Positions 3,420 through 18,692 of a DNA stretch of 20,148 nucleotides are shown one piece after another. The notes under the pieces are model-generated. The model was not told where the DNA came from. It ran no database searches and saw only the letters and a program-made list of their open reading frames with translations. The stretch is taken from positions 1 through 20,148 of the IMG/VR virus record IMGVR_UViG_3300049847_000261, one strand, 5' to 3'. Positions within the stretch are counted from its first letter, which is position 1. Each line of letters starts with the position of its first letter. This DNA is from a virus. The position numbers were made by a program, and so were the translations under genes.

Positions 3420-3682
3420 AAGACCCAATAGACAAACTCATCGAAAGTGCCCATAGTCTCGCGGGACTAAACTCCGGGGATATATGGGCTCTCATGTCGG
3501 TGCTTCTCTTTGGATACATCTACTGGACAAAAAAACAGGAGATTTTGAGCAACAAGGGATGGCAGGACATCCGCGAGAAGCAGATTGCCTCAGAGGCCGC
3601 ACAAACAGAAGTGATGAAACGTTTGACAGAAGAAATCGTGGCATTGAAAATGATAATTACTAAATTCCTGATAAAGGAGTGA
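3416..3682 (+). CDS. Small membrane protein with C-terminal coiled coil
   Basis: 88 residues, ATGA overlap with the preceding gene. One hydrophobic segment at about residues 23-39 (DIWALMSVLLFGYIYW) is followed by a charged helical region (about 40-88) with heptad-like spacing of hydrophobic residues. Size, single membrane span and place just upstream of a peptidase fit a lysis accessory protein, such as a one-span holin-like or spanin-like component, but no family motif is evident. Lysis is inferred from neighbours. It could equally be an anchor for the adjacent exported proteins. Confidence 0.7.
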   Translation: MKDPIDKLIESAHSLAGLNSGDIWALMSVLLFGYIYWTKKQEILSNKGWQDIREKQIASEAAQTEVMKRLTEEIVALKMIITKFLIKE

Positions 3683-3685
3683 GTT

Positions 3686-3874
3686 ATGTTTAAGTGGCTT
3701 GACAGGAGAAAACACATTAGACGCGATCAGGATATGCAAGATCGCATGAACGAGGCTGTCGAAGCCAAACATAAGGCGGCACTTGAAGCGTTAGAGAAAT
3801 TAAAGCAGTTCACATCCGAACGCAGGACAAAAGATGAGCCTTACTATGGCCCAGAGCGAAGAGCGCACGCTTAA
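3686..3874 (+). CDS. Small basic helical protein
   Basis: 62 residues, with AAGGAG six bases before the ATG. The protein is highly charged (MFKWLDRRKHIRR, then a helical stretch EAVEAKHKAALEALEKLKQF) and ends in RRTKDEPYYGPERRAHA. No membrane span or signal is seen. It starts three bases after the membrane protein's stop and its 3' end overlaps the next gene by 41 bases in another frame. Function is unknown; it may be a partner of the coiled-coil membrane protein. I do not recognise a named family. Confidence 0.65.
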   Translation: MFKWLDRRKHIRRDQDMQDRMNEAVEAKHKAALEALEKLKQFTSERRTKDEPYYGPERRAHA

Positions 3875-4028: not shown

Positions 4029-4390
4029 GTAGCCCATGGACATATTTTAAGCCAGAGGAAGTCGAGGGGTTAGATAATGAGTTTATTGCGAAGTTGGAAA
4101 AAGCCAGACACATCGCCGGAGTTCCGTTTGAGATCACGTCAGGGAAAAGAACCGAAGGAGCCAATGCTACCGCAGGAGGGGTGCAAGACTCCGCACACCT
4201 ATCCGGCAGAGCTGTGGATTTGCGAAGTCGTACTTCCCACACGCATTTCAAAATCGTTGAGGGGGCGATCGTTGCGGGAATTCGCCGTATCGGCGTGTAT
4301 CGAAATCAGGAAGGATCACCGAGTCATATTCACCTTGACGACGCCAGTGACCTTCCTCAGGAAGTCCTGTGGCTAGGTGTTTCTCACTAG
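4025..4390 (+). CDS. M15-family zinc peptidase, likely endolysin
   Basis: 121 residues from the ATG at 4025, chosen because it sits in an ATGA overlap; the frame extends upstream to 3935, but that part only shadows the zinc-ribbon gene. The fold opens with WTYFKPEEVEGLD, typical of Peptidase_M15_3-like proteins. SAHLSGRAVDLR supplies zinc ligands H58 and D65, and SHIHLDD supplies H103, the classical HxxxxxxD...HxH arrangement of VanY/D-Ala-D-Ala carboxypeptidases and phage L,D-endopeptidases. It would cut peptidoglycan stem peptides to release virions. There is no signal peptide, so export depends on a holin; holin-like candidates lie on both sides (3416-3682, 5421-5684). Confidence 0.9.
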   Translation: MSSPWTYFKPEEVEGLDNEFIAKLEKARHIAGVPFEITSGKRTEGANATAGGVQDSAHLSGRAVDLRSRTSHTHFKIVEGAIVAGIRRIGVYRNQEGSPSHIHLDDASDLPQEVLWLGVSH

Positions 4391-4435
4391 CTTTCTGTGA
4401 CGATATTTACCATGTTTTTATAGGAGAGTGTAAAT

Positions 4436-5765: not shown

Positions 5766-5987
5766 TCAGTCCTCGTCAATAAACTCAACACCATCTGGCA
5801 CATCGTGCGTCAAAGCAATCCCAAGAGTGTGTTTGCTGTAAACGTGTTCTGAAATCCATTCCATTATCTTGGGAGGTGTTTCAGCGTCCTTTGATCCATA
5901 GCCAAAGCTGTAAATCATACCCATGAACTGCCCAAGATGACGGGCCTTTTTGCAGGTTAAACAATAGACGTTATAGTCTGTACTCAT
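5766..5987 (-). CDS. Hypothetical phage protein with a CxxC motif
   Basis: 73 residues from the ATG at 5987; a GTG directly upstream (5990) would sit too close to the ribosome site GGAGGGG. The N-terminus YNVYCLTCKKARHLGQFMG carries a CxxC, followed by EWISEHVYSKHTLGIALTHD. The pattern of a cysteine pair, then a helical region with conserved His, is familiar from short uncharacterised phage proteins and suggests zinc binding. It is the last gene of the minus-strand block, separated from the next gene upstream by two structured RNA elements. Confidence 0.7.
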   Translation of the reverse strand: MSTDYNVYCLTCKKARHLGQFMGMIYSFGYGSKDAETPPKIMEWISEHVYSKHTLGIALTHDVPDGVEFIDED

Positions 5988-6023
5988 CACCCCTCCAATC
6001 GAATAGTCTGCTCAAAATCATTC

Positions 6024-6087
6024 GGTGTCTGGCCGCACTAGTAGCGGAAGTATGCTCTCACGGACTTGTGAGATCGCCGCAGACACC
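6024..6087 (-). ncRNA. Structured RNA candidate A (three-way junction)
   Basis: GGTGTCTG (6024-6031) and CAGACACC (6080-6087) form a perfect 8-bp closing stem. Inside are two hairpins: CCGC/GCGG (6033-6036 with 6044-6047, 7-base loop) and TCTCAC/GTGAGA (6056-6061 with 6068-6073, 6-base loop). The strand is given as that of the surrounding genes, but the symmetric structure does not fix it. It is not a normal tRNA: too short and with no D arm. No known riboswitch core is recognised. Confidence 0.5.
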
Positions 6088-6096
6088 TAAAACGAA

Positions 6097-6159
6097 GCGG
6101 GGAGTGTGCGATTCTTACGCCTCAACATACCCCTCGGCTAGCCCTGAGTAGCTCCCCGC
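6097..6159 (-). ncRNA. Structured RNA candidate B (three-way junction)
   Basis: GCGGGGAG (6097-6104) and CTCCCCGC (6152-6159) form a perfect 8-bp closing stem. Inside, GCG/CGC (6108-6110 with 6118-6120, 7-base loop) and CTC/GAG (6133-6135 with 6146-6148, with inner GG/CC) give two short hairpins. Length and layout match element A. On the minus strand the closing stem is followed by TTCGTTTTA, so it could also act as a terminator for the genes upstream. Confidence 0.5.
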
Positions 6160-6163
6160 AAAA

Positions 6164-6526
6164 TCATTTGTCCTCCGGCAACGCTAGGAAGGCCTTGCAG
6201 ATAGCCTCTGGGACTGAACTGCATTCCCCGCTATTCGACAGTCCTCCGTTTATCTGGCAATGAGCATAGCGATCTGTTCGTGATTCTTTTGATACAAAGT
6301 TATAGGTTTGTGATCGTCCAAAGAATATACTTACAGACATGTCTTTAGTGTCTAAATGCTCAACAATCTCCCACGCCGCCCCAATATCGCCGGAGTAGTT
6401 GGGAGGTTCTTTAGGCATCCCTACACGGTCAGTCCACCACTCTTTTCCCGTGATAAAACCCGGAGCATCTTGGCATTGAGCCTTCTTCCACCCCAACTTT
6501 TTCGCTACTTGCTCATTCAAAGTCAT
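6164..6526 (-). CDS. Phage ABA sandwich domain protein
   Basis: 120 residues. The N-terminus MTLNEQVAKKLGWKK, a central SGDIGAAWEIVEHL segment and the C-terminal VPEAICKAFLAL segment follow the pattern of the Phage_ABA_S (ABA sandwich) family, whose members are small proteins of unknown function in phage early regions. Its ATG directly follows the TAG stop of the upstream gene, so translation is probably coupled. Three Cys in the C-terminal half have no obvious zinc pattern. Confidence 0.75.
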   Translation of the reverse strand: MTLNEQVAKKLGWKKAQCQDAPGFITGKEWWTDRVGMPKEPPNYSGDIGAAWEIVEHLDTKDMSVSIFFGRSQTYNFVSKESRTDRYAHCQINGGLSNSGECSSVPEAICKAFLALPEDK

Positions 6527-6820
6527 CTACCTTCCCTCCCCGTTCCCGTCGAGCGCGGCTTTGGCTTCCTTCTCCATAAATTCAAATGGTATAGGCTTAC
6601 CCTCTTTCCAAAGCCTAAGAACATCTAAAACGTGGATAACGACAGCCTCCAGCTTCTCGTTGCGATGAAATAAATCGGTACGCTCCTTTTCTATTGCTTC
6701 GGAAGCTTTATGTGCGTTTGCTAATTCATCTTTGAGTCGGGACAGCTCGGCCTGTAGCTCACAGACGAGACATTGGCGGGCCAGTGATCCGTGCTCGCAA
6801 ACTTTTCCGAATTCGCTCAT
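6527..6820 (-). CDS. Small coiled-coil protein with N-terminal Cys/His motif
   Basis: 97 residues from ATG 6820, chosen because GAGGTGGAGG precedes it; the frame is open to 6913, but that part overlaps the methyltransferase gene. Residues 7-20 (VCEHGSLARQCLVCE) have a C-x-H...C-x2-C arrangement typical of a mini zinc knuckle, followed by a long heptad coiled coil (LQAELSRLKDELANAHKAS to LFHRNEKLEAVV) and a basic tail. Proteins starting with this CEHG...QCxxC pattern are frequent in phages; function is unknown. It is followed directly by the ABA sandwich gene. Confidence 0.75.
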   Translation of the reverse strand: MSEFGKVCEHGSLARQCLVCELQAELSRLKDELANAHKASEAIEKERTDLFHRNEKLEAVVIHVLDVLRLWKEGKPIPFEFMEKEAKAALDGNGEGR

Positions 6821-6845
6821 CCTCCACCTCTCATTCTTTCGGGTT

Positions 6846-7427
6846 TCATGGGTTTGCTTCAAAGAAAGCTTTCGCAAAGTCGATGGGGCAGCTGCTCCTG
6901 GTGCCATCAACATTGTCGTGTTTCATGGCATACGCACCCATCCATCTATTTGACGATACGGGCGAATGAAGTAATGGCCTCTTGGGTGTATTGAACAGTC
7001 CCCAAAGGGCCGTCTTTTTGCTGTACTCCGCGCCGTATTCGCACTGGTTGTAAACAAACACTGGCTTTCCCAAATACCATTTTAGATACCCTGTCGCAGG
7101 GTTCTCTATGCTCCAGAAGGCCAGCGGCGATTTCTCAAATGAAATCTTTGTTGTTCTGTACTGACACTCCCAGATGATCCGCAGACACTCTTTCACTAGG
7201 CGCATCCCTTCTCTAACGTCACGCGGTGTCTTTGCTCTCGTCCTCGCGATGCTGAACATTGTGCAAGGAGGGTTCGCAATGATCCCGTACACATTGGGGG
7301 GGGGTACATAGTTTTCAACCCCTATGTCCTCGCCGATAATGCGAACGTCATACCCCGCGTCACGATAAGGCTTAGAGTCAGATCCCTCTTTCGCGCACAA
7401 GTGAAGGATGATTTTGTCTCCGTTCAA
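6846..7427 (-). CDS. DNA cytosine methyltransferase-like protein, short phage form
   Basis: 193 residues from a TTG start abutting the TAA of the upstream gene. It has a motif I-like LHLCAKEGSDSKPYRDAGYD, the catalytic ANPPCTMFS (C55, motif IV) and SIENP (108-110, motif VI), as in C5-cytosine methyltransferases. It is much shorter than bacterial Dcm-type enzymes: the target-recognition domain and the usual QRR-like motif VIII are reduced or missing (QCEYG...KKTALWG sits there). It may methylate phage DNA against restriction, or modify a base or nucleotide. A run of nine C in the coding strand encodes three prolines (42-44) just before the catalytic motif. Confidence 0.75.
   Translation of the reverse strand: MNGDKIILHLCAKEGSDSKPYRDAGYDVRIIGEDIGVENYVPPPNVYGIIANPPCTMFSIARTRAKTPRDVREGMRLVKECLRIIWECQYRTTKISFEKSPLAFWSIENPATGYLKWYLGKPVFVYNQCEYGAEYSKKTALWGLFNTPKRPLLHSPVSSNRWMGAYAMKHDNVDGTRSSCPIDFAKAFFEANP
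7296..7304. repeat. Run of nine G (nine C in the coding strand) inside the methyltransferase gene
   Basis: G9 at 7296-7304 encodes Pro-Pro-Pro of the minus-strand methyltransferase, upstream of the PPC motif. Tracts of this length can slip; a one-base change would remove the catalytic part of the protein. Confidence 0.85.
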
Positions 7428-7667
7428 TTACTTCTTCTCCTCCCTGTTGAGGGCTTCTAAGAGGGCGTCTGCCATATTTACAGCACTCTGACAGATCGGA
7501 ATATCCCAACCTCCAATACCCAATCCAATCAATCCCTGTAAGCACATCGCCGCAAAATACTCCCGCTTGGTGAGGCCGTAACGGATATCGCAATCTTTAT
7601 CCTCTGGCTGTCGCATATAGTAGACTTCTGGTTTTGATAAATATACAGGATCGCTTCCATTCGTCAT
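7428..7667 (-). CDS. Conserved small phage protein (GLTKREYFA type)
   Basis: 79 residues, AAAGGAA before the ATG. The stretch YGLTKREYFAAMCLQGLIG followed by AVNMADALLEALN is a pattern met again and again in small uncharacterised phage early proteins: a turn, a helix with KREYFA, and a C-terminal helix with ADALL. It is probably an all-helical soluble protein. Function is unknown. It lies immediately upstream of the methyltransferase gene and ends in NREEKK. Confidence 0.75.
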   Translation of the reverse strand: MTNGSDPVYLSKPEVYYMRQPEDKDCDIRYGLTKREYFAAMCLQGLIGLGIGGWDIPICQSAVNMADALLEALNREEKK

Positions 7668-7678
7668 CTGGGTTCCTT

Positions 7679-7957
7679 TCAGGCCGAAGCCTTTATTCGT
7701 TTGTCAGACACTTCTTTTCTGCGAATCCAAATCTGCGCCCCACGATGCGTAAATGGAACCCTCTCAAACCCTGCATCGATCAGTTTGTCTACTTGGGGAT
7801 TCTCGTGGATGAACACTTCCGCTTCTGGAGCATAGCTGTGGATGAACTTCTCAAGCTTCGCCCGTTCGTAATCAATCGCCGTGGCGCACTGAAGCGGCGG
7901 ATGAGTGAAATGTGGAGAAGGCAAGGACATCGCCATGATGAGAAATAGATCATTCAT
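7679..7957 (-). CDS. Hypothetical protein, 92 residues
   Basis: The ATG at 7957 lies in an ATGA overlap with the upstream gene, which supports this start despite a poor ribosome site. The protein shows two His-rich patches (PSPHFTHPP and FTHRGAQIWIRRKE) and a mixed alpha/beta centre (AKLEKFIHSYAPEAEVFIHENPQVDKLIDAGFERV). There is no Cys pair, signal or membrane span. I do not recognise a family. The gene follows the strand and spacing of its neighbours, so it is probably real. Confidence 0.6.
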   Translation of the reverse strand: MNDLFLIMAMSLPSPHFTHPPLQCATAIDYERAKLEKFIHSYAPEAEVFIHENPQVDKLIDAGFERVPFTHRGAQIWIRRKEVSDKRIKASA

Positions 7958-8244
7958 ACATGAGATTTGAGTAAATTGAGTAAACTGAGTTGCTCACAAA
8001 CACAATAGCCGCAGATTCCCGTAGTTTCGCATCCGTAACCCACTATAACTATTGGGCAAATCCATACTTTTCTTCTGTATGTTTCCCCATAGATTCTTGT
8101 TTCAACCAATTCTTTTTCACTATGGCAATGTGGACACGGTGATCCGCCACCCCATTCAGAACATTGAACATCCTCTTGAATTTCCCATCCTCCATCCCAC
8201 ATTCCACCTGTTTTGTATTTATGTGTTTTCATGAAAGAGATCAT
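7954..8244 (-). CDS. Cysteine-rich hypothetical protein, probable zinc ribbon
   Basis: 96 residues from ATG 8244, chosen for the ATGA overlap with the upstream gene; a GTG at 8265 in the same frame is less likely. CPHC (about residue 37) and a later CETTGICGYCVC cluster supply at least six cysteines around a strand-rich middle (VETRIYGETYRRKVWICPIVIV), resembling a zinc ribbon. No membrane span is convincing. The function is unknown. It is one of several small zinc-type proteins in this block. Confidence 0.65.
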   Translation of the reverse strand: MISFMKTHKYKTGGMWDGGWEIQEDVQCSEWGGGSPCPHCHSEKELVETRIYGETYRRKVWICPIVIVGYGCETTGICGYCVCEQLSLLNLLKSHV

Positions 8245-8348
8245 TTCGCTTTGAAATCCTCGCACTTACACCCCACCCACACGCACTTCCCGTATACATC
8301 GATCCCGGCGTGGTCTTCTTTGTCATGCCAACATTCACACACTCTCAT
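8241..8348 (-). CDS. Tiny Cys-rich protein, 35 residues
   Basis: The ATG at 8348 is preceded by GGAGGT six bases upstream, so this internal start is preferred; the longer open frame only shadows the nuclease-like gene. The whole protein has Cys at five places (VCECWHDKEDHAG...GKCVWVGCKCEDFKAK) with two His, a pattern of very small phage zinc-knuckle proteins (CxC...H...H...C...CxC...F). It overlaps its upstream neighbour by 14 bases and its downstream neighbour by four. Function is unknown. Confidence 0.65.
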   Translation of the reverse strand: MRVCECWHDKEDHAGIDVYGKCVWVGCKCEDFKAK

Positions 8349-8745
8349 TCGGAACCTCCATCTCAAAAGAAACTTTCCCCTGCGGAGACAAAACAGCTTT
8401 CCATTTGCGGCACACCCATAACTTCCGTTTCCCTCGCTCTCCACGCTTGACGAAGCTGTAGATGTACAGGTCAAACCACGCCATCAGGTGCGCCAGGTTT
8501 TCATTAGGGCCAAACTTCGGCGGCACGTTATCTATATCGCCTTCCAGATACTTCCGTATGTGAGGATGAATATCAGCAAGACAACCATTCACCAGCCTCG
8601 GCCTTCGGAGATGTGTAGGGTCGTAGCCCATCACATCCCCGAAGCCGTACAGATCCTTCACAAGCACAGGGCCCATCCGACGGTCGCACTCTGCCGTCAC
8701 GAATCCTTCTCGCCGTAGCTCGATGAGTGTCTTGCTGTTTGCCAT
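8335..8745 (-). CDS. Phage nuclease-like protein (VRR-NUC / PD-(D/E)XK type, tentative)
   Basis: 136 residues; ATG overlaps the stop of the SSB-like gene by one base (TAATG). The N-terminal half ELRREGFVTAECDRRMG then VKDLYGFGDVMGYDP follows the pattern of small phage nuclease-like proteins, where a helix, a strand with E and a (R/K)DLFGFxD loop form part of the active site; the C-terminal FVKRGERGKRKLWVCRKW is also typical. The usual strand with Q-x-T/K after the FGFGD motif is replaced by a non-standard segment (LVNGCLADIHPHIRKYL), so catalytic activity is uncertain. Its place next to SSB and the Sak4-like ATPase suits a recombination or repair role. Confidence 0.55.
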   Translation of the reverse strand: MANSKTLIELRREGFVTAECDRRMGPVLVKDLYGFGDVMGYDPTHLRRPRLVNGCLADIHPHIRKYLEGDIDNVPPKFGPNENLAHLMAWFDLYIYSFVKRGERGKRKLWVCRKWKAVLSPQGKVSFEMEVPNESV

Positions 8746-9197
8746 TAGAAGGGCAGACTGTCGTCTTTCTTAGGCTGAGCGATGGGTTCAATGCCCTTGA
8801 TCTTGTTCGACTTTCGGCCTTGGTACTCATCCTGAATGACGTAGCCTCTGAACTCCTGACCGACCCAGTTGGCGGGCGTTACTTCAAACTTGCCTTCCCA
8901 CGGTTGGTCAATCGACTTCAGGAAGTGAATTGCCATTCCGGCTCCCGGAGCGTCTTTCTTCAAGAACGTCACGGAATGAAACACCCGCTCTCCCTTGAAC
9001 TCGCCTTCGGTCGTGACCTCAGCCAGAATATCCACTTTCGGATCTCCGTTCTTTGTCGTGCCTTCCTTCGGGTACATGTCGCCCGCTTTGCTCATGAACT
9101 CCACGATCTCGAACTCGTAGGTTCCCTTCGGCAACAACTTCTTCTCGAACTTACCCTCGTCCTGCTTGATGCCTGTCGCGTCGTATGGAAAACTCAT
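8745..9197 (-). CDS. Single-stranded DNA-binding-like protein (DUF669-type)
   Basis: 150 residues, AGGAGG before the ATG. LPKGTYEFEIVEF at residues 22-34 and a strand-rich core with ERVFHSVTFLKKD are typical of the DUF669-type phage SSB substitutes. The end, PKKDDSLPF, is an acidic tail ending in Phe, as used by SSB proteins to recruit partners. It would coat single-stranded phage DNA and work with the Sak4-like ATPase two genes upstream. A decayed second copy of its 5' part lies at 10905-11010. Confidence 0.75.
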   Translation of the reverse strand: MSFPYDATGIKQDEGKFEKKLLPKGTYEFEIVEFMSKAGDMYPKEGTTKNGDPKVDILAEVTTEGEFKGERVFHSVTFLKKDAPGAGMAIHFLKSIDQPWEGKFEVTPANWVGQEFRGYVIQDEYQGRKSNKIKGIEPIAQPKKDDSLPF

Positions 9198-9599
9198 TTA
9201 CTTGCCTCCTTTAGTAAATCTTCCAGCTTCAAGAATAGGTAGATTTGCTTCTGTCGGGACATAAATAACTTGTCCTTGTTCATGCGAATTTTCTAATCCC
9301 TGAATCCATAGATATCTCAAATACGCCTCATTTCCTTGTAATGACTCTCCGATAATTTTGTTCGCTTGCGCTACGCCCTTTGCTCGTGCTATTTCAGCTT
9401 CGGCAAGCAAACTCGCAGATTCCATTTTTGCTTTGGCTTCTGCAACCGCTACTTCCCGACTAGACTGAGCATGTGCAAGAATAGCTTGCCCTTCCATTCT
9501 CTGGCTATATACGTTGTATTTTGGATACGACCAAAGAGCCGATAGAATCAAAATAATCCCACAAACAATTAGGCTAATTATTCCGTTATTTGAATCCAT
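9198..9599 (-). CDS. Membrane protein related to the C-terminal part of band-7/SPFH proteins
   Basis: 133 residues, start overlapping the ATPase stop by one base. Residues about 7-24 are a membrane span (IISLIVCGIILILSALW). Then comes a long Ala/Glu helix (EVAVAEAKAKMESASLLAEAE with ARAKGVAQANKIIGESL) and the tail GNEAYLRYLWIQGL...VIYVPTEANLPILEAGR. This matches the end of prohibitin/stomatin-like proteins, but the SPFH domain itself is absent. It may scaffold at the membrane or titrate a host SPFH protein such as HflK or HflC, which is inference. It sits between the ATPase and SSB genes. Confidence 0.7.
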   Translation of the reverse strand: MDSNNGIISLIVCGIILILSALWSYPKYNVYSQRMEGQAILAHAQSSREVAVAEAKAKMESASLLAEAEIARAKGVAQANKIIGESLQGNEAYLRYLWIQGLENSHEQGQVIYVPTEANLPILEAGRFTKGGK

Positions 9600-10483
9600 T
9601 ACTTGCCTCCTAGTTTTTTCTGTAAGAAATCAATTGTCTTTTGAATCTTATCGGCGGCCATCTCGTTCCATTCATCCACATCAGCCTTCGTCAAGATGTC
9701 CGTCTCGAACGTGTCCTCTACTTTTACAATGCCAAGCAGACGTTTCACCTCCGCGACTTGCTCAGGACTGGCGAGTGGTGTGGGTGTGCTTTCCCGTTCG
9801 ATGTCGTCTTTGCCGTAGCACATCAGGAAGTTCTTGTATGACCACTCAAACTCCGCCGGGAACTTGTTCTGTCCCACTTCGGCCCGTTCCTTCTTGGTCA
9901 TCGCCACTCGTTTACCCTTGGAGTCCATCACAAGCTGAAACACGTAGTCGAATATGTGCTCGTCGCCCTTCATAGAGTCGGATCCGAATCCGACTTTCTT
10001 CATGCCTTCGCCGTAAACGTCCTTCTGGTGGGCGGTAAGAATCACGTTCATGTCACAAGCAAGCAACATACGCATAATTGCTTTATAGTCACTCTTGACT
10101 TTGGCCCAGTATCGGAACCCGAAATCTTGAAGCTCAGTAGCTTTTTCCGTGTCTGCATATTTACTAAAAATACGTGTCCATTTCTCCTGTATAGCTTGGT
10201 ATAGGATAGTGACAGGATCGATGACAATTGTCCTATAGTCATGCTTCTCGGTGAGCAGGGTTTTGATTTCATCTTTCACCTCGTCGGGGTTGGTGGTGTG
10301 CAGAACAATACTGCCGTTTTTGATGATCGTGTCGGAGTAATTGTCTGTGCCGTGTTCCATGTCGATGATTACGGACTTCGGCCAGTTGATCGCGGCGGTG
10401 GTCTTGCCGATACCGGCGGTACTGAATACCATCATCTTGACTCGTTTATTCTTTGGCTCAGGCGTTTTTGCTTTCGGTGGCAT
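9599..10483 (-). CDS. Sak4-like recombination ATPase (AAA_24 family)
   Basis: 294 residues; AAGGAG eight bases before the ATG. Walker A is at residues 21-29 (STAGIGKTT) and Walker B at 84-89 (RTIVID). The stretch VILTAHQKDV (sensor-like) and the basic C-terminal half agree with phage RecA-fold ATPases of the Sak4/AAA_24 group, which promote annealing of single-stranded DNA together with an SSB. The cognate SSB-like gene lies two genes downstream, and a nuclease-like gene follows it, completing a probable recombination module. The C-terminus DEWNEMAADKIQKTIDFLQKKLGGK is helical. Walker motifs are seen; the family name is from recognised pattern. Confidence 0.85.
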   Translation of the reverse strand: MPPKAKTPEPKNKRVKMMVFSTAGIGKTTAAINWPKSVIIDMEHGTDNYSDTIIKNGSIVLHTTNPDEVKDEIKTLLTEKHDYRTIVIDPVTILYQAIQEKWTRIFSKYADTEKATELQDFGFRYWAKVKSDYKAIMRMLLACDMNVILTAHQKDVYGEGMKKVGFGSDSMKGDEHIFDYVFQLVMDSKGKRVAMTKKERAEVGQNKFPAEFEWSYKNFLMCYGKDDIERESTPTPLASPEQVAEVKRLLGIVKVEDTFETDILTKADVDEWNEMAADKIQKTIDFLQKKLGGK

Positions 10484-10498
10484 GGTGCGTCTCCTTGT

Positions 10499-10873
10499 TT
10501 AGAGTCCATTGGACTTTTTAATTAAATCTGGATTTTCGTAGATGTTGCCAATTACTTTTGGTCTATTAGGTGGCCAGTAAAAATCTTTTTCCTTGCTGTT
10601 GTTTGAAAAATAGAAAGATGCTGTTTTTTTATTAAAAGAAACTATGCCTTTATATTGTTTGTATGCGCAGCATTCCCCTCCTGGCTCAAGCCATTTTTTA
10701 GAGCCGCCCGTCATTAAGATGTCTCCCTCATAAATTTCTTTCCCATTTTTATCAGTAAGGCCAGTAAACTGCATGACAACATCAGTATCCTTTAATAGGA
10801 ATTTTTGTCCGAAATTCTTATGCCAGAATTCTTTGTATATCGGACTCCATATCCTGAATTTTAATTTACGCAT
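10499..10873 (-). CDS. YopX-like protein
   Basis: 124 residues. Hallmarks of the YopX family are clear: an N-terminal KLKFRIWSPIYKEF, the central MQFTGLTDKNGKEIYEGDIL, and the C-terminal VIGNIYENPDLI. YopX-like proteins are common in phages and prophages, form a small beta-rich fold and have no settled function. It has no good ribosome site at ATG 10873. It is separated from the ATPase gene by 15 bases and lies directly downstream of the decayed SSB copy. Confidence 0.85.
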   Translation of the reverse strand: MRKLKFRIWSPIYKEFWHKNFGQKFLLKDTDVVMQFTGLTDKNGKEIYEGDILMTGGSKKWLEPGGECCAYKQYKGIVSFNKKTASFYFSNNSKEKDFYWPPNRPKVIGNIYENPDLIKKSNGL

Positions 10874-10904
10874 TAGTAGGCCCGCCCCGTGTATTCTGAT
10901 TATT

Positions 10905-11010
10905 ACGCCTTTCTTCGTGATTCATTCCTTCGGGTAGGTGTCGACAGCTTTTCTCATGAAGTCCACGATCATTCCACTTTGATTCCTTTGCCGTCATATC
11001 GAAAGCTCAT
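10905..11010 (-). pseudogene. Decayed second copy of the SSB-like gene
   Basis: From the ATG at 11010 the frame reads MSFRYDGKGIKVE and then stops (10969-10971). The next frame continues IVDFMRKAVDTYPKE and stops again. The intact SSB-like protein reads MSFPYDATGIKQDE and, after 16-odd residues, IVEFMSKAGDMYPKE. The DNA is also similar (for example CTCATGAA.TCCACGATC in both, on the plus strand), so this is an old paralogue fragment that lost an internal piece and shifted frame. GGAG still lies before its ATG. It overlaps the end of the 10994-11320 gene by 17 bases. Confidence 0.8.
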
Positions 11011-11320
11011 TTTGTTTCTCCTTTTCTATGTATTTATCAAGATCAATTTCTGTATGATCCTTACAAGCCCAGAAAGAACGACCCTTGTGCCCCCACTCCA
11101 CATTTCTAAAGGAAATGGCTCCACCGCCCACTTGCTTTGATTGAGTCATAGGAACATGGAGCAATTCCGTTATTTCGTAAACGTACGATTCCTCTCTGTG
11201 GCACACCTCGCATATATATGTTTCTGTTTCTGTCCAAAATCTCCTTTCTGGATATTTGCATTTCATGCCGAACCATCTGCCATATTCTTCTCTTTTGTTT
11301 GAAGTTGCGACAGTTTTCAT
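10994..11320 (-). CDS. Hypothetical protein with Cys pairs
   Basis: 108 residues. A basic start (MKTVATSNKREEYGRWFGMKC) is followed by YICEVCHREESYVYEI with a CxxC, and near the end FWACKDHTEIDLDKY with another Cys and His. This spacing could bind zinc. The middle is beta-rich and polar with no membrane span. The family is not recognised. The 3' end runs 17 bases into the decayed SSB copy. Confidence 0.6.
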   Translation of the reverse strand: MKTVATSNKREEYGRWFGMKCKYPERRFWTETETYICEVCHREESYVYEITELLHVPMTQSKQVGGGAISFRNVEWGHKGRSFWACKDHTEIDLDKYIEKEKQNELSI

Positions 11321-11374
11321 CTTCCGCCGCTCCGAAGACTTATTCTAATTATGTGGTCTCGTGGATCGCTCATG

Positions 11375-11656
11375 TCATTCCCCATGCTTAGCGAAACGAA
11401 TGTCCCGTTCAATAGCCTCGTCAATATCATGCTCGATCTTTGAACTCATGGCAGACTCGGCTTCGTTTTCTTCATCTTGTTCAAAAGCTTCTATCATCCA
11501 ATTTTCAGCATAGTATTTTGACTCGTCCTTGGTATAGGTAAGATGAGATTTCTCGATATGTCGGATCATAGCCTCCAAACCAATCTCGATATGTTTTGCA
11601 GGACATTCGTTACATTCAATCGGAATTGTCTTTTCAGTATGCGTCGATAAGCTCAT
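11375..11656 (-). CDS. Small C2H2-type zinc-finger protein
   Basis: 93 residues; the ATG lies in an ATGA overlap with the coiled-coil gene upstream. Residues about 14-38 read IECNECPAKHIEIGLEAM then IRHIEKSH: a C-x2-C pair, a helix and an H-x4-H pair, which is a C2H2 zinc finger, possibly DNA-binding. The C-terminal half is strongly acidic (EQDEENEAES) with a final basic patch. Such single-finger proteins occur in phages and archaeal viruses; target unknown. Confidence 0.7.
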   Translation of the reverse strand: MSLSTHTEKTIPIECNECPAKHIEIGLEAMIRHIEKSHLTYTKDESKYYAENWMIEAFEQDEENEAESAMSSKIEHDIDEAIERDIRFAKHGE

Positions 11657-11880
11657 AGCATCCTCCCGATTTTGGTCAGCAGACTAACCCGTTGCCCGTG
11701 GCTCTTGAGTGCGGCAAGTTCGACTTCAAGCGCGATGATGTCATCCTCAATCTGACTTTGTTGCATAATGAGGTGCTTGATGTTCTCGGCGGCTTCGATC
11801 TCCCATTTACCAAACTTCCGCTGTTTCGCCCGCAGTTCATGGATCTTCTCTTGAATGGCGATTTCGTCTGTTCTGCTCAT
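11653..11880 (-). CDS. Small coiled-coil protein
   Basis: 75 residues from ATG 11880, chosen because it makes an ATGA overlap with the upstream membrane-protein gene; the longer open frame to 12000 only shadows that gene. It is almost entirely helical and charged (EIAIQEKIHELRAKQRKFGKWE, then QSQIEDDIIALEVELAALKSHG) with heptad spacing, then a short basic tail. Function is unknown; it is likely an oligomer. Confidence 0.65.
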   Translation of the reverse strand: MSRTDEIAIQEKIHELRAKQRKFGKWEIEAAENIKHLIMQQSQIEDDIIALEVELAALKSHGQRVSLLTKIGRML

Positions 11881-12083
11881 CGGAATAACCCCATCGCCAT
11901 ATTCATGGCGTACCACACGCCGGCACATACCCCCAATGCCATCAGAAGACACACAAACCCCGCGATCTTCGCCGCCGTGTCCTCCGTGAAGTGATACCAC
12001 GTCCTACGGATACGACGCACTCTCATAGCAAACTCAACATCCTTTTTCTTCTTCTCAATCAATGCCTGTCCCCAGCCGCTCAT
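11877..12083 (-). CDS. Small single-span membrane protein
   Basis: 68 residues from ATG 12083, preceded by GGGGAGGGG; the upstream part of the open frame lacks a ribosome site and shadows another small gene. A basic N-terminal half (EKKKKDVEFAMRVRRIRRTW) is followed by a hydrophobic segment at about residues 38-62 (AAKIAGFVCLLMALGVCAGVWYA), implying an N-in, single-span topology by the positive-inside rule. Function is unknown. It is coupled on both sides by ATGA overlaps. Confidence 0.65.
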   Translation of the reverse strand: MSGWGQALIEKKKKDVEFAMRVRRIRRTWYHFTEDTAAKIAGFVCLLMALGVCAGVWYAMNMAMGLFR

Positions 12084-12184
12084 AACCCCTCCCCCATATA
12101 TAGGCAGTCGTAAAACTCCGACCGCTCCTCGATGACCAACACCGTATCCCAGAACGCACGCAGAACGCTTGTCGGTCTGTTCAT
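12080..12184 (-). CDS. Tiny protein, 34 residues, coupled at both ends
   Basis: ATG at 12184 and stop at 12080 both lie in ATGA overlaps with the neighbouring genes, and no other gene fills this gap. The product begins MNRPTSVLRAFWDTV, continues LVIEERSEFYDC, and ends LYMGEGL. The acidic centre and aromatic residues look like a genuine small protein. The ribosome site of the next gene (GGGGAGGGG) is encoded within its last codons. Function is unknown. Confidence 0.65.
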   Translation of the reverse strand: MNRPTSVLRAFWDTVLVIEERSEFYDCLYMGEGL

Positions 12185-12333
12185 CGGGCTGTCCTGAACT
12201 TCTCACTTTGTAAATGTTGTAGAACCATCGCTCGGTCAAATCCCACGGCTTCGGCAACATCCGCGATCTCGTTCGGTGAGTATGTCGTGAAGTGGGCTTT
12301 GTTTTCTTCCAGCCATGTCATCAGTTCGTTCAT
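12181..12333 (-). CDS. Small helical protein, first gene after an internal promoter
   Basis: 50 residues from ATG 12333, with GGGAGG upstream; an ATG at 12363 in frame lacks a ribosome site and falls at the predicted transcription start. The sequence (ELMTWLEENKAHF, then YSPNEIADVAEAVGFDRAMVLQHL) looks all-helical and its second half resembles a helix-turn-helix, so it may bind DNA. It lies about 30 bases after the start predicted from the strong minus-strand promoter at 12370-12398. No family is recognised. Confidence 0.65.
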   Translation of the reverse strand: MNELMTWLEENKAHFTTYSPNEIADVAEAVGFDRAMVLQHLQSEKFRTAR

Positions 12334-12369: not shown

Positions 12370-12398
12370 AGTATATCAGGAGGATATCAGGCTGTCAA
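12370..12398 (-). promoter_or_regulatory. Strong sigma70-type promoter for the minus-strand block
   Basis: On the minus strand, TTGACA (12398-12393) is separated by exactly 17 bases from TATACT (12375-12370): 11 of 12 consensus positions. Transcription would start near 12363 and run into the 12333 gene. The promoter overlaps the 3' end of the repressor gene and carries the shared operator (12372-12389). Confidence 0.8.
12372..12389. promoter_or_regulatory. Putative repressor operator, copy 1
   Basis: TATATCA-GGAG-GATATC, starting two bases inside the -10 box and filling much of the spacer. The same motif occurs in copy 2 in the same register. On the minus strand it reads as two GATAT half-sites 11 bases apart, one helical turn, as expected for ribbon-helix-helix dimers. 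Confidence 0.65.
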
Positions 12399-12575
12399 TG
12401 GTTTATTTTGATTATTTTTACCGGATAAGAATTGTAGAGGCGGCAATTTCCCGTAGCGTAAAAGATCACGCAAATACTCCTGAACCGTTAAAGAGTGATG
12501 CGCCGCGCACGTCTTCAGGAAAGTGTAGTCTGCTTCGGTGAGTCTCAGTAAAACTGCTCTATTGTGGTTTCTCAT
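12387..12575 (-). CDS. Ribbon-helix-helix (Arc/MetJ-type) transcription regulator
   Basis: 62 residues. After a short basic tail (MRNHN), RAVLLRLTEADYTFLKTCA supplies the DNA-contacting beta strand and first helix, and SLTVQEYLRDLLRYG the second helix of a ribbon-helix-helix fold, often found as a repressor that binds as paired dimers. It is the first gene of the minus-strand block, beside the divergent control region. Its promoter's predicted start coincides with its ATG, so its mRNA may be leaderless. A common motif (TATATCA-N4-GATATC) lies in its own promoter and in the promoter just behind it, fitting self-control plus control of the block. The target assignment is inference. Confidence 0.75.
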   Translation of the reverse strand: MRNHNRAVLLRLTEADYTFLKTCAAHHSLTVQEYLRDLLRYGKLPPLQFLSGKNNQNKPLTA

Positions 12576-12581
12576 GCCACC

Positions 12582-12610
12582 TATATATCATAAAGATATC
12601 CATTTGACAA
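12582..12610 (-). promoter_or_regulatory. Promoter of the repressor gene
   Basis: On the minus strand TTGTCA (12610-12605), 17 bases, TATATA (12587-12582). The expected start is at about 12575, the first base of the repressor ATG. Its -35 box overlaps that of the rightward promoter. Confidence 0.6.
12584..12600. promoter_or_regulatory. Putative repressor operator, copy 2
   Basis: TATATCA-TAAA-GATATC, again starting two bases inside the -10 box, as in copy 1. The four middle bases differ between copies while the outer 13 are identical. Confidence 0.65.
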
Positions 12611-12632
12611 GGCCTGTTTTGTTTTGTAGGTT
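12604..12632 (+). promoter_or_regulatory. Rightward promoter for the replication block, weak -10
   Basis: TTGACA (12604-12609) matches consensus exactly; 17 bases later is TAGGTT, a poor -10. It shares its -35 bases with the repressor promoter on the other strand, and ACAAGGCCTGT overlaps its -35/spacer. The weak -10 suggests activation or that another signal is used. Confidence 0.45.
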
Positions 12633-12743: not shown

Positions 12744-13595
12744 ATGCTCTTTGATTTAGCTAGATCTCAAAAGAAAATACGATGGTTTACCCAAGCGGAT
12801 CTATCTCCAGATATAGAGATATGGGTGCATGACGCATTCGCAGACAAATATCTGATGCCCATTCATATCCAAAACGTCAGAGAGTATGTAGACATCCAAC
12901 ACGACAACAAAAAAGTCACATGGGATTGGCTTACAGATTTCCCGAACATAGCCCCTCCATTTGAGCTGATGTGGATGGAATACAAATTCGAGAATGTAGG
13001 TAAAACAGGATTCCTTATCCATTCAGAGAAAACAGATGATGGCTGGTCTATGGTTATCTTCAACTTTCAGCAGATCGAAAGCGACGCTCCGCTTGTATCA
13101 GTAACGAACGCTCTCATTAATAAAGATGGGTCTATTAGACAGCGATCTAATGGTGGATGGGTTAGAAATATATTCCCAGAAATGCCAGATCCTAAGCATA
13201 TTGAAATTTTAAGAAGTGGACTACAAAATGCGTTGATCCCTGTTTTTTTAAGCATCTGTTTTATGAATTGTAAAAACATATCTCTTGATAAATCTCCAGA
13301 GTGGCCCGAAAAACTTCAAAAGTCACGAATAAGAAAAGGAAAACTCCCGTTGATAAGACACCACACAATAATCATCGACGGTATAAAGAAAATAATAAAA
13401 GAGGCGCAAAACGGTAACGATGGGATAAGCCCAAAAGCTCTCCATATCTGCAGGGGCCATTTTAAGAATTTCGATGAGCACCCGTTATTTGGGAAATATA
13501 GAGGGACATATTGGTGGCCTCAGCAAATGCGCGGAAGTAAAGCATTTGGGGAGATCACCAAAGACTATAAAATTAATGCTGTTGTGGGAGGGTAA
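12744..13595 (+). CDS. Conserved phage protein of unknown function with CRGHFK motif
   Basis: 283 residues, GAGGAGGGG before the ATG. The N-terminal two thirds are mixed, with aromatic-rich strands (KIRWFTQADLSPDIEIWVHD, APPFELMWMEY). The C-terminal third has SICFMNCKNISL, then a basic stretch (KSRIRKGKLPLIRHHTIIID), then ALHICRGHFKNF (H234, C236, H239) and GTYWWPQQMRG. This C-terminal pattern is one I recall from uncharacterised phage and prophage proteins located near early control genes. The Cys and His could bind metal. It starts the rightward block, just before the replication gene. Confidence 0.75.
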   Translation: MLFDLARSQKKIRWFTQADLSPDIEIWVHDAFADKYLMPIHIQNVREYVDIQHDNKKVTWDWLTDFPNIAPPFELMWMEYKFENVGKTGFLIHSEKTDDGWSMVIFNFQQIESDAPLVSVTNALINKDGSIRQRSNGGWVRNIFPEMPDPKHIEILRSGLQNALIPVFLSICFMNCKNISLDKSPEWPEKLQKSRIRKGKLPLIRHHTIIIDGIKKIIKEAQNGNDGISPKALHICRGHFKNFDEHPLFGKYRGTYWWPQQMRGSKAFGEITKDYKINAVVGG

Positions 13596-17092: not shown

Positions 17093-17220
17093 AGATCCCC
17101 GTGAAATGCCCGACGTGTCACAAGCTGGCGCATCATTACTGGCTGAACTGGGGCGAGGTCACGTCATGCAACAACTGTTTTTATGTGAATGTCGTGCATG
17201 ACTACCTGAGGCAACCGTGA
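17089..17220 (+). CDS. Small zinc-ribbon protein between the terminase genes
   Basis: 43 residues. ATG overlaps the small-terminase stop (ATGA) and its stop overlaps the large-terminase GTG (GTGA), so the three are translated as a unit. VKCPTCHKLAHHYWLNWGEV then TSCNNCFYVNVV gives two CxxC pairs and two His in a zinc-ribbon fold. It may be a detached zinc domain of the terminase complex or a regulator. This is a gene found by coupling rather than length. Confidence 0.75.
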   Translation: MKIPVKCPTCHKLAHHYWLNWGEVTSCNNCFYVNVVHDYLRQP

Positions 17221-18692
17221 GCAACGTTTCTTTAGCGGAGATCCAAGAGGCCTGCAAATCCAGTCTGCACTTTCTCTGTACGCAGATGCTCGGATACAAA
17301 GACTGGGACGTGGTGCATGACGAGCTGGAGTTGTGGCTGGCGCGTCCGTCGTCAAAGAAAGCCCTTTTGTTGCCGCGAAACCATTTGAAGACGAGCATTG
17401 TGACGATCGGCAAGACGATTCAGGCGATCTTGAAGAACCCGAATGTGCGTGTGTTGATTGCCAATCAGGTGTGGGACATCTCGCGGAAGATGTTGTCTGA
17501 GATCAAGGAAAACTTGGATGGGAAATCGCAGCTTTCAAAACTTTTTGGGGAATTTAGATCGGACTATTGGAATCAGGATGCTATTACTATCCGACAGCGC
17601 ACGAAGGCTCTTAAAGAGCCAACGATTTCCACAACCGGTGTTGAAGCTGAGCAGACGGGTGGCCATTTCGATCTTATCTTTTTGGACGATCTTACGGGTT
17701 TACAGAACTCGCAAACGCCCGAACAGCGGGAGAAGGTGAAACGGTTTCGTCGGTCGATGGTGAACCTGCTTGAGCCGGGTGGACAGCTTCTTGAGGTTGG
17801 GACGCGCTGGCATTTAGACGACACGTTTTCCGAGGTTTTGGAGAAAGAAGCCGAGTACTACGACATCATGGTTCGTCAGGTGGTGGAGAACGGCAAGATC
17901 ATTTTCCCCTTGAAGTTCAACAAGCGATTCGACAAGGACAAGAAGGTTTGGGTATCGAGTGACACGCCTTGCTTTGATTTCATTGACCACCTGAAAAAGT
18001 CGATGACTCCCGCCGAGTACTCCGCGCAATACATGAACAATCCCGTTGATGAAGAAAACCAGTTGTTTAAGCCGGGATACTTCAAGTACTACGACAGACG
18101 GCCTGACAGACTTTTCGTGAGCATGACGATTGATCCGGCGATCAGCGAGAAGCAAAGCGCTGACTACTTCGTGATTAACGTGACGGGGATGGACGAGAAG
18201 TACGACATCTACGTTCTGGATTCTCTCAAAGGCCATTGGAACGTTTCCGAGTCGATCAACAACATCTTTACCATGTACGACAAGTGGCATCCGTCGGTGG
18301 TGGGTCTTGAAACGGTGGCGTTTCAGAAAGCACTCAAGCAGTGGTTGGAAGAACAGATGCGGGTGCGCGGCAGTTACTTCCCGATCACGGAACTCAAGCG
18401 CAACACGAACGAAAGCAAAGAGTTTCGGATTAAGGCGTTGGAGCCGTTTTACCGTGGCGGCAAGGTCTATCACGCGCCGTGGATGAAGTCTTTAGAAGAA
18501 GAGCTTCTGACGTTCCCGAAGGGCCGACATGACGACGAGATCGACGCGCTCGCGAGCCAGTTGGATTTGCTTGTTCCGGGGGATTCCGAGGCACGGCAGG
18601 ACGTTCCGGCGGGGTCTTGGGAAGCGGCGTTCAATGAAGCACGGAAACTGCATCACGGACACAACGATTTTTTTCATGAAACAATTAATTAA
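17217..18692 (+). CDS. terL: Terminase large subunit
   Basis: 491 residues, GTG start in a GTGA overlap. The ATPase half has the deviant Walker A PRNHLKTS at residues 53-60 and Walker B LIFLDD at 153-158, with a coupling-like LLEVGTRWH at about 191-199. The nuclease half has D306 (TIDPA), E365 (GLETVAFQ) and D439/D440 (GRHDDEIDALA), the acidic metal ligands of the RNase H-like fold. It pumps DNA into the procapsid and cuts it. The 3' end overlaps the next small gene by 17 bases. Confidence 0.95.
   Translation: MSNVSLAEIQEACKSSLHFLCTQMLGYKDWDVVHDELELWLARPSSKKALLLPRNHLKTSIVTIGKTIQAILKNPNVRVLIANQVWDISRKMLSEIKENLDGKSQLSKLFGEFRSDYWNQDAITIRQRTKALKEPTISTTGVEAEQTGGHFDLIFLDDLTGLQNSQTPEQREKVKRFRRSMVNLLEPGGQLLEVGTRWHLDDTFSEVLEKEAEYYDIMVRQVVENGKIIFPLKFNKRFDKDKKVWVSSDTPCFDFIDHLKKSMTPAEYSAQYMNNPVDEENQLFKPGYFKYYDRRPDRLFVSMTIDPAISEKQSADYFVINVTGMDEKYDIYVLDSLKGHWNVSESINNIFTMYDKWHPSVVGLETVAFQKALKQWLEEQMRVRGSYFPITELKRNTNESKEFRIKALEPFYRGGKVYHAPWMKSLEEELLTFPKGRHDDEIDALASQLDLLVPGDSEARQDVPAGSWEAAFNEARKLHHGHNDFFHETIN

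Follow-up and report, generated by a model that had tools for sequence, protein, structure and literature searches.

Regulators of the ribbon-helix-helix (RHH) type provide the closest described systems for the locus considered here. Arc of phage P22 places two dimers on half-sites 11 bp apart, and CopG of plasmid pLS1 is an RHH autorepressor that works at its own promoter. MobC of plasmid RA3 is an RHH protein that represses its own promoter via a palindrome lying between the -35 and -10 elements (PMC4175270), and RelB, from the E. coli relBE system, binds as RHH dimers to repeated 6-bp subsites (PMC2812701).

The stretch of DNA analysed, called the window throughout, is a viral fragment of 20,148 bp that carries genes for the terminase large subunit (TerL) and an M15-type endolysin. 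Between its leftward block and its rightward genes sits a minus-strand gene for a 62-aa protein (Table 1). We think it highly probable, from the sequence and its comparison with relatives, that this protein is an autorepressor of the Arc/CopG/MobC kind that would also act on the promoter of the early operon. With MobC it would share the RHH fold and an imperfect palindromic operator between the -35 and -10 of its own gene, but MobC has 176 aa, is a plasmid transfer protein and has a single operator of other sequence in a relaxase operon. Arc, too, is a small phage RHH repressor with 11-bp half-site spacing and sites that overlap promoter elements; however, it acts at the ant region through another operator sequence, and the Pfam Arc model (PF03869) gave no match to the 62-aa protein up to E=1. 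CopG is an RHH autorepressor and among the best fold neighbours of the window protein, yet it serves plasmid copy control and has a different operator. RelB offers RHH dimers, repeated 6-bp subsites and autorepression, but it is an antitoxin with a co-repressor toxin, and its 12-bp half-sites allow no spacing. RHH autorepression is known. A search of the open-access literature found no description of the present system, and to that extent both this protein and its two operators in one register are new.

The 62-aa protein and its flanking promoters

The 62-aa protein is very likely an RHH protein. Its best Pfam and NCBIfam matches are to NikA-like (PF21983) and MbpA families, the former at E=3e-5 and 24.4 bits, which is under the curated cut-off of 27 bits. 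The single-sequence AF2 model has an extended segment at residues 7-12 and helices at 14-26 and 31-41, with a core pLDDT of 78-90 and no DSSP strand in the monomer, and its fold neighbours, at Z about 4, are nearly all RHH proteins, among them NikA, AtaR, Arc (PDB 1par, 1baz) and CopG. In searches by sequence, tblastn with the 62-aa protein returned nothing from the phages, plasmids and viral_contigs collections, the search of solved structures yielded no RHH protein for it or for the small protein of the relative L021, and the RHH_1 model failed to detect the RHH genes of these phages.

Table 1. Coordinates in the window of the 62-aa gene and its surroundings; operators and promoters are predictions
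Feature	Position	Strand or location	Basis or remark
Leftward early block	5766..12333	minus	ORF list, PHROG matches; proposed target of operator 2
SSB-like gene	8745-9197	leftward early block	PHROG match
Sak4-like gene	9599-10483	leftward early block	PHROG match
First gene of the early block, 50 aa, with a Shine-Dalgarno start	12181..12333	minus	homologues in L041 and L042
Early-operon promoter, TTGACA-GCCTGATATCCTCCTGA-TATACT, 17-base spacer	12370..12398	minus	11/12 consensus, TG before -10
Operator 2 (behind), predicted; GATATC-N5-GATATA, overlaps RHH stop codon and early-operon -10	12372..12388	minus	exact match
62-aa gene, very likely RHH	12387-12575	minus	
Front promoter, TTGTCA-AATGGATATCTTTATGA-TATATA, 17-base spacer	12582..12610	minus	ATG of the RHH gene six bases after the -10
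Operator 1 (front), predicted; GATATC-N5-GATATA, overlaps spacer and -10 of RHH gene promoter	12584..12600	minus	exact match, same register as operator 2, same class in L185
Divergent promoter, possible but weak, TTGACA-17-TAGGTT, facing the rightward genes that start at 12744	12604..12632	plus	read from sequence
First rightward gene	12744-13595	plus	
TerL gene	17217-18692		

A sequence-only reading had drawn attention to the motif TATATCA-N4-GATATC on either side of this gene. The full string, TATATCANNNNGATATC, has exactly two exact matches in the 20,148 bases, so the claim of two sites stands, but the end it gave for the site behind the gene, 12389, is one base too far. The placement it described is also what we find: each site begins two bases inside the -10 of a minus-strand promoter with a 17-base spacer, one before and one behind the 62-residue gene, and GATATC, itself palindromic, takes up the equal spacer position in both promoters. 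The -35 of the early-operon promoter falls within the RHH coding region. From its bases, the most natural reading of each site is a pair of GATAT(C/A) subsites with 11 bp between their centres, the second overlapping the -10. Because of this overlap, part of the dyad is promoter-like by nature, and the informative shared part is the GATATC fixed within the spacer. The consensus scanner lists the early-operon promoter only, since the TATATA of the front promoter fails its rule of a T at position 6. The window thus has a palindromic, operator-like site laid over the promoter of the RHH gene, and L185, the closest relative with such a gene, keeps it.

Six bases separate the front -10 from the ATG of the RHH gene, and the same geometry is found in the relatives L021, L041, L048 and L185. 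At this distance transcription is predicted to begin on the first base of the ATG, and, to judge by promoter position, the RHH mRNA is probably leaderless. A similar ATG is found for the gene that comes first behind the second promoter: in the window (12363), in L021 (7329) and in L042 (1807), it lies in frame, upstream of the Shine-Dalgarno start, and coincides or nearly coincides with the predicted +1.

In the proposed mechanism, RHH dimers would occupy both GATAT(C/A) subsites of an operator, perhaps cooperatively, and would in this way cover the spacer and -10 at each of the two tandem leftward promoters. Upon infection both promoters would fire, and as the protein accumulated both would be damped: occupation of operator 1 would block RNA polymerase and turn off transcription of the RHH gene itself, and occupation of operator 2 would turn off the early operon, comprising the 50-aa gene and then the recombination and SSB genes.

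The rightward genes open with one whose product matches phrog_20769, of unknown function, and distant actinobacteriophage proteins, and continue with a replication-initiation-like gene. The possible divergent promoter in front of them was not picked up by the consensus promoter scan. Its TTGACA overlaps the -35 of the front promoter almost exactly (12600-12632), and two polymerases at such overlapping divergent -35 elements could mutually exclude one another.

The paired motif in relatives

Since the 62-aa protein had no matches in the collections, relatives were sought through TerL. The best match, L039/L185, has 66% TerL identity and comes from a record of 41,379 bp; the L039 contig ends before the region upstream of TerL is complete, and the other end of the record, L185, is the sole source of the homologue. 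Its RHH gene (2157-2303) encodes 48 aa that align with the window protein at 37% over 38 aa (BLASTP E=2e-9, pairwise) and match the Pfam NikA-like family at 40.8 bits, above the cut-off. The promoter in front of it reads TTGCCT-AGGGTATATCCTTATGA-TATGAC and the one behind TTGCAT-ATGGTATATCCATGGGA-TATATA, and in both the spacing and register of the motif match the window, although the bases around the motif differ. The pattern KATATCN5GATATV occurs in the whole L185 record only at those two flanking promoters, and in none of twelve other relatives. The expectation that relatives keeping the RHH gene would keep the paired motif was thus borne out, at both promoters, in the closest such relative. 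The RHH gene of L185 is not the first of the leftward genes, and this we counted against the autorepressor reading. Looser TATC-N5-GATA copies adjoin the L185 gene at 2064 and 2363; the second (2363-2375) is 17 bp from the rear operator, a layout that suggests tandem cooperative binding at this site. Elsewhere in L185, on the plus strand, 3618-3854 and 4185-4418 encode two small proteins similar to the 58-aa protein of L041; neither has a Pfam match, and from its residues each looks to have an RHH-like pattern.

In L021 (64%) and L041 (64%) a paired motif of another form, TATC-N1-GATA, marks the two promoters that flank a 58-aa gene, one not confirmed as RHH. L048 speaks against the autorepressor reading, since the gene at the equivalent place is clearly a NikA-like RHH gene and yet no recognisable motif pair lies before or behind it. 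The TATC-N1-GATA motif is present three times in the 39.5 kb of L021, the third copy being 250 bp further along the operon, and twice in the 14.8 kb of L041, versus 0.016 per kb in other relatives. The flanking sites of L021 are in one register, and the front site of L041 is further upstream within the spacer. In a front-versus-behind shuffle test the values were 2/500 for L021, 34/500 for L041 and 380/500 for L048; that of the window (92/500) was left unused, because the "behind" stretch taken for it started within the operator. Between the small proteins of L021 and L041 there is a weak likeness. Pfam recognises neither as RHH, hhalign gives 0.9%, a single-sequence AF2 model of the L021 protein has three helices, and a profile built from the two retrieved only L021's own contig. 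They are positional analogues only. As for the remaining loci, no motif was found in the fetched loci surrounding the NikA-like matches of G004 and G013, and sequence reading around the weak NikA-like match of G018 showed no such promoter pair. In L020, CGATAGTTAAGA units are repeated before leftward genes (2050-2170), perhaps as a different operator or an iteron set.

Competing explanations of the sites

The alternative that survives best, though we regard it as improbable, is that the sites are bound by some other protein, either a host RHH regulator or, for instance, the 50-aa first early product, and that the RHH gene is merely a neighbour. The 50-aa product looks HTH-like on reading its sequence, and the unpaired RHH gene of L048 fits with such a neighbour. 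However, it is the RHH gene that the motif accompanies, rather than the 50-aa gene: L042 carries the homologue of the 50-aa gene but lacks both the motif and an RHH gene in front, whereas in L185 both motif and RHH gene are present and no 50-aa homologue was found. Moreover, unrelated loci likewise put an RHH gene at the motif. When viral contigs were scanned with the promoter-operator pattern alone, 17 stretches were retrieved, and 7 of them (L005, L009, L010, L012, L014, L015 and L018) form one related group in which an RHH gene lies 66-89 bp from the motif. From their protein sequences, these loci are read as TnpB-type elements, and the seven count as one independent case. The RHH protein of L012 passes the Pfam RHH_5 and Arc cut-offs. 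In L193, which belonged to the model used, an RHH gene is 194 bp from a motif. In phage contigs the TnpB-type genes share TTGACA-NNGTGATATCACTATGATATAAT-like promoters, with a small RHH gene alongside and divergent.

The DNA pattern alone was also considered as a diagnostic, and was rejected. The full front-promoter pattern retrieved eight stretches, and only one of them, L192, which is the L185 record again, starts an RHH gene at the ATG; among 300 genomes of the order of a relative's bacterial bin there was one match. GATATC-N5-TGATATA resembles an extended -10, and most viral sites that carry it start no RHH gene.

That resemblance is the substance of a second alternative, to which we give very little credence, namely that the two sites look alike only because each belongs to a good sigma-70 promoter with an extended -10 element (TGATATA) and contains GATATC by chance. 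Half of each site is indeed the -10 itself, and a search for TATATCA-N4-GATATC with up to 3 mismatches gave 8 matches versus 4.97 expected from shuffles, which is not unusual; this control, having been run at up to 3 mismatches, is silent on the exact pair. Against chance stands the rarity of the spacer element: ATATC is found in the spacer of 9 of 242 comparable (TTG-17-TAT) promoters in 540 kb of relatives, and six of these nine make up three flanking pairs, in the window, L185 and L021, each pair with one offset (5, 5 and 9, respectively), the other three being isolated. The same arrangement also recurs in L185 despite the different flanking bases. In a scan of 1.85 Mb (177 viral loci), which predates the finding of L185 and counts L021 twice, as L021/L070, there were 19 promoter pairs 100-450 bp apart that share at least 6 bases in the same spacer register, and only in the window and L021 does a small gene start right at the first promoter.

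Least credible of all is ordinary antitoxin or mob autoregulation by an antitoxin or relaxosome accessory protein, a reading to which the NikA-like and MbpA matches lend some colour, but the window setting is one of phage replication, recombination and terminase genes, the genes adjoining the RHH gene had no toxin-family match in the scans run, and the gene behind it varies between relatives, so that no constant toxin partner is recognised: the window has the 50-aa gene, L021 and L185 have genes with weak matches of zinc-ribbon-like or Lar-like kind, and L048 has a member of a third family.

Immunity and wider meaning

Three relatives (G018, G021 and G040) carry integrase-like genes, the match in G040 being under the Pfam cut-off. 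This evidence that relatives are temperate had escaped the sequence-only reading, as had the leaderless ATG and the possible divergent promoter. In the window and nine relatives, records that may be incomplete, neither an HTH_3 match over the cut-off nor any S24 match was found. As no CI-type repressor was recognised, the RHH protein might be the main repressor. We advance only tentatively, as something possible but on the doubtful side, the broader idea that in these phages a leaderless RHH protein would take over the role of a CI-type protein as main immunity repressor, and that from phage to phage the operator sequence and the spacing of its half-sites (N5 or N1) would change together with the type of repressor.

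In any case, the comparison provides a concrete candidate regulator and two candidate operators for an uncultivated phage lineage without a recognised CI-type repressor, and it shows that comparison can test a motif noticed by eye in a single genome. A general operator shape for small RHH repressors is suggested as well, in which GATATC-N5-GATATA covers the spacer and -10; the same shape is seen, independently, beside RHH genes in TnpB-type elements.
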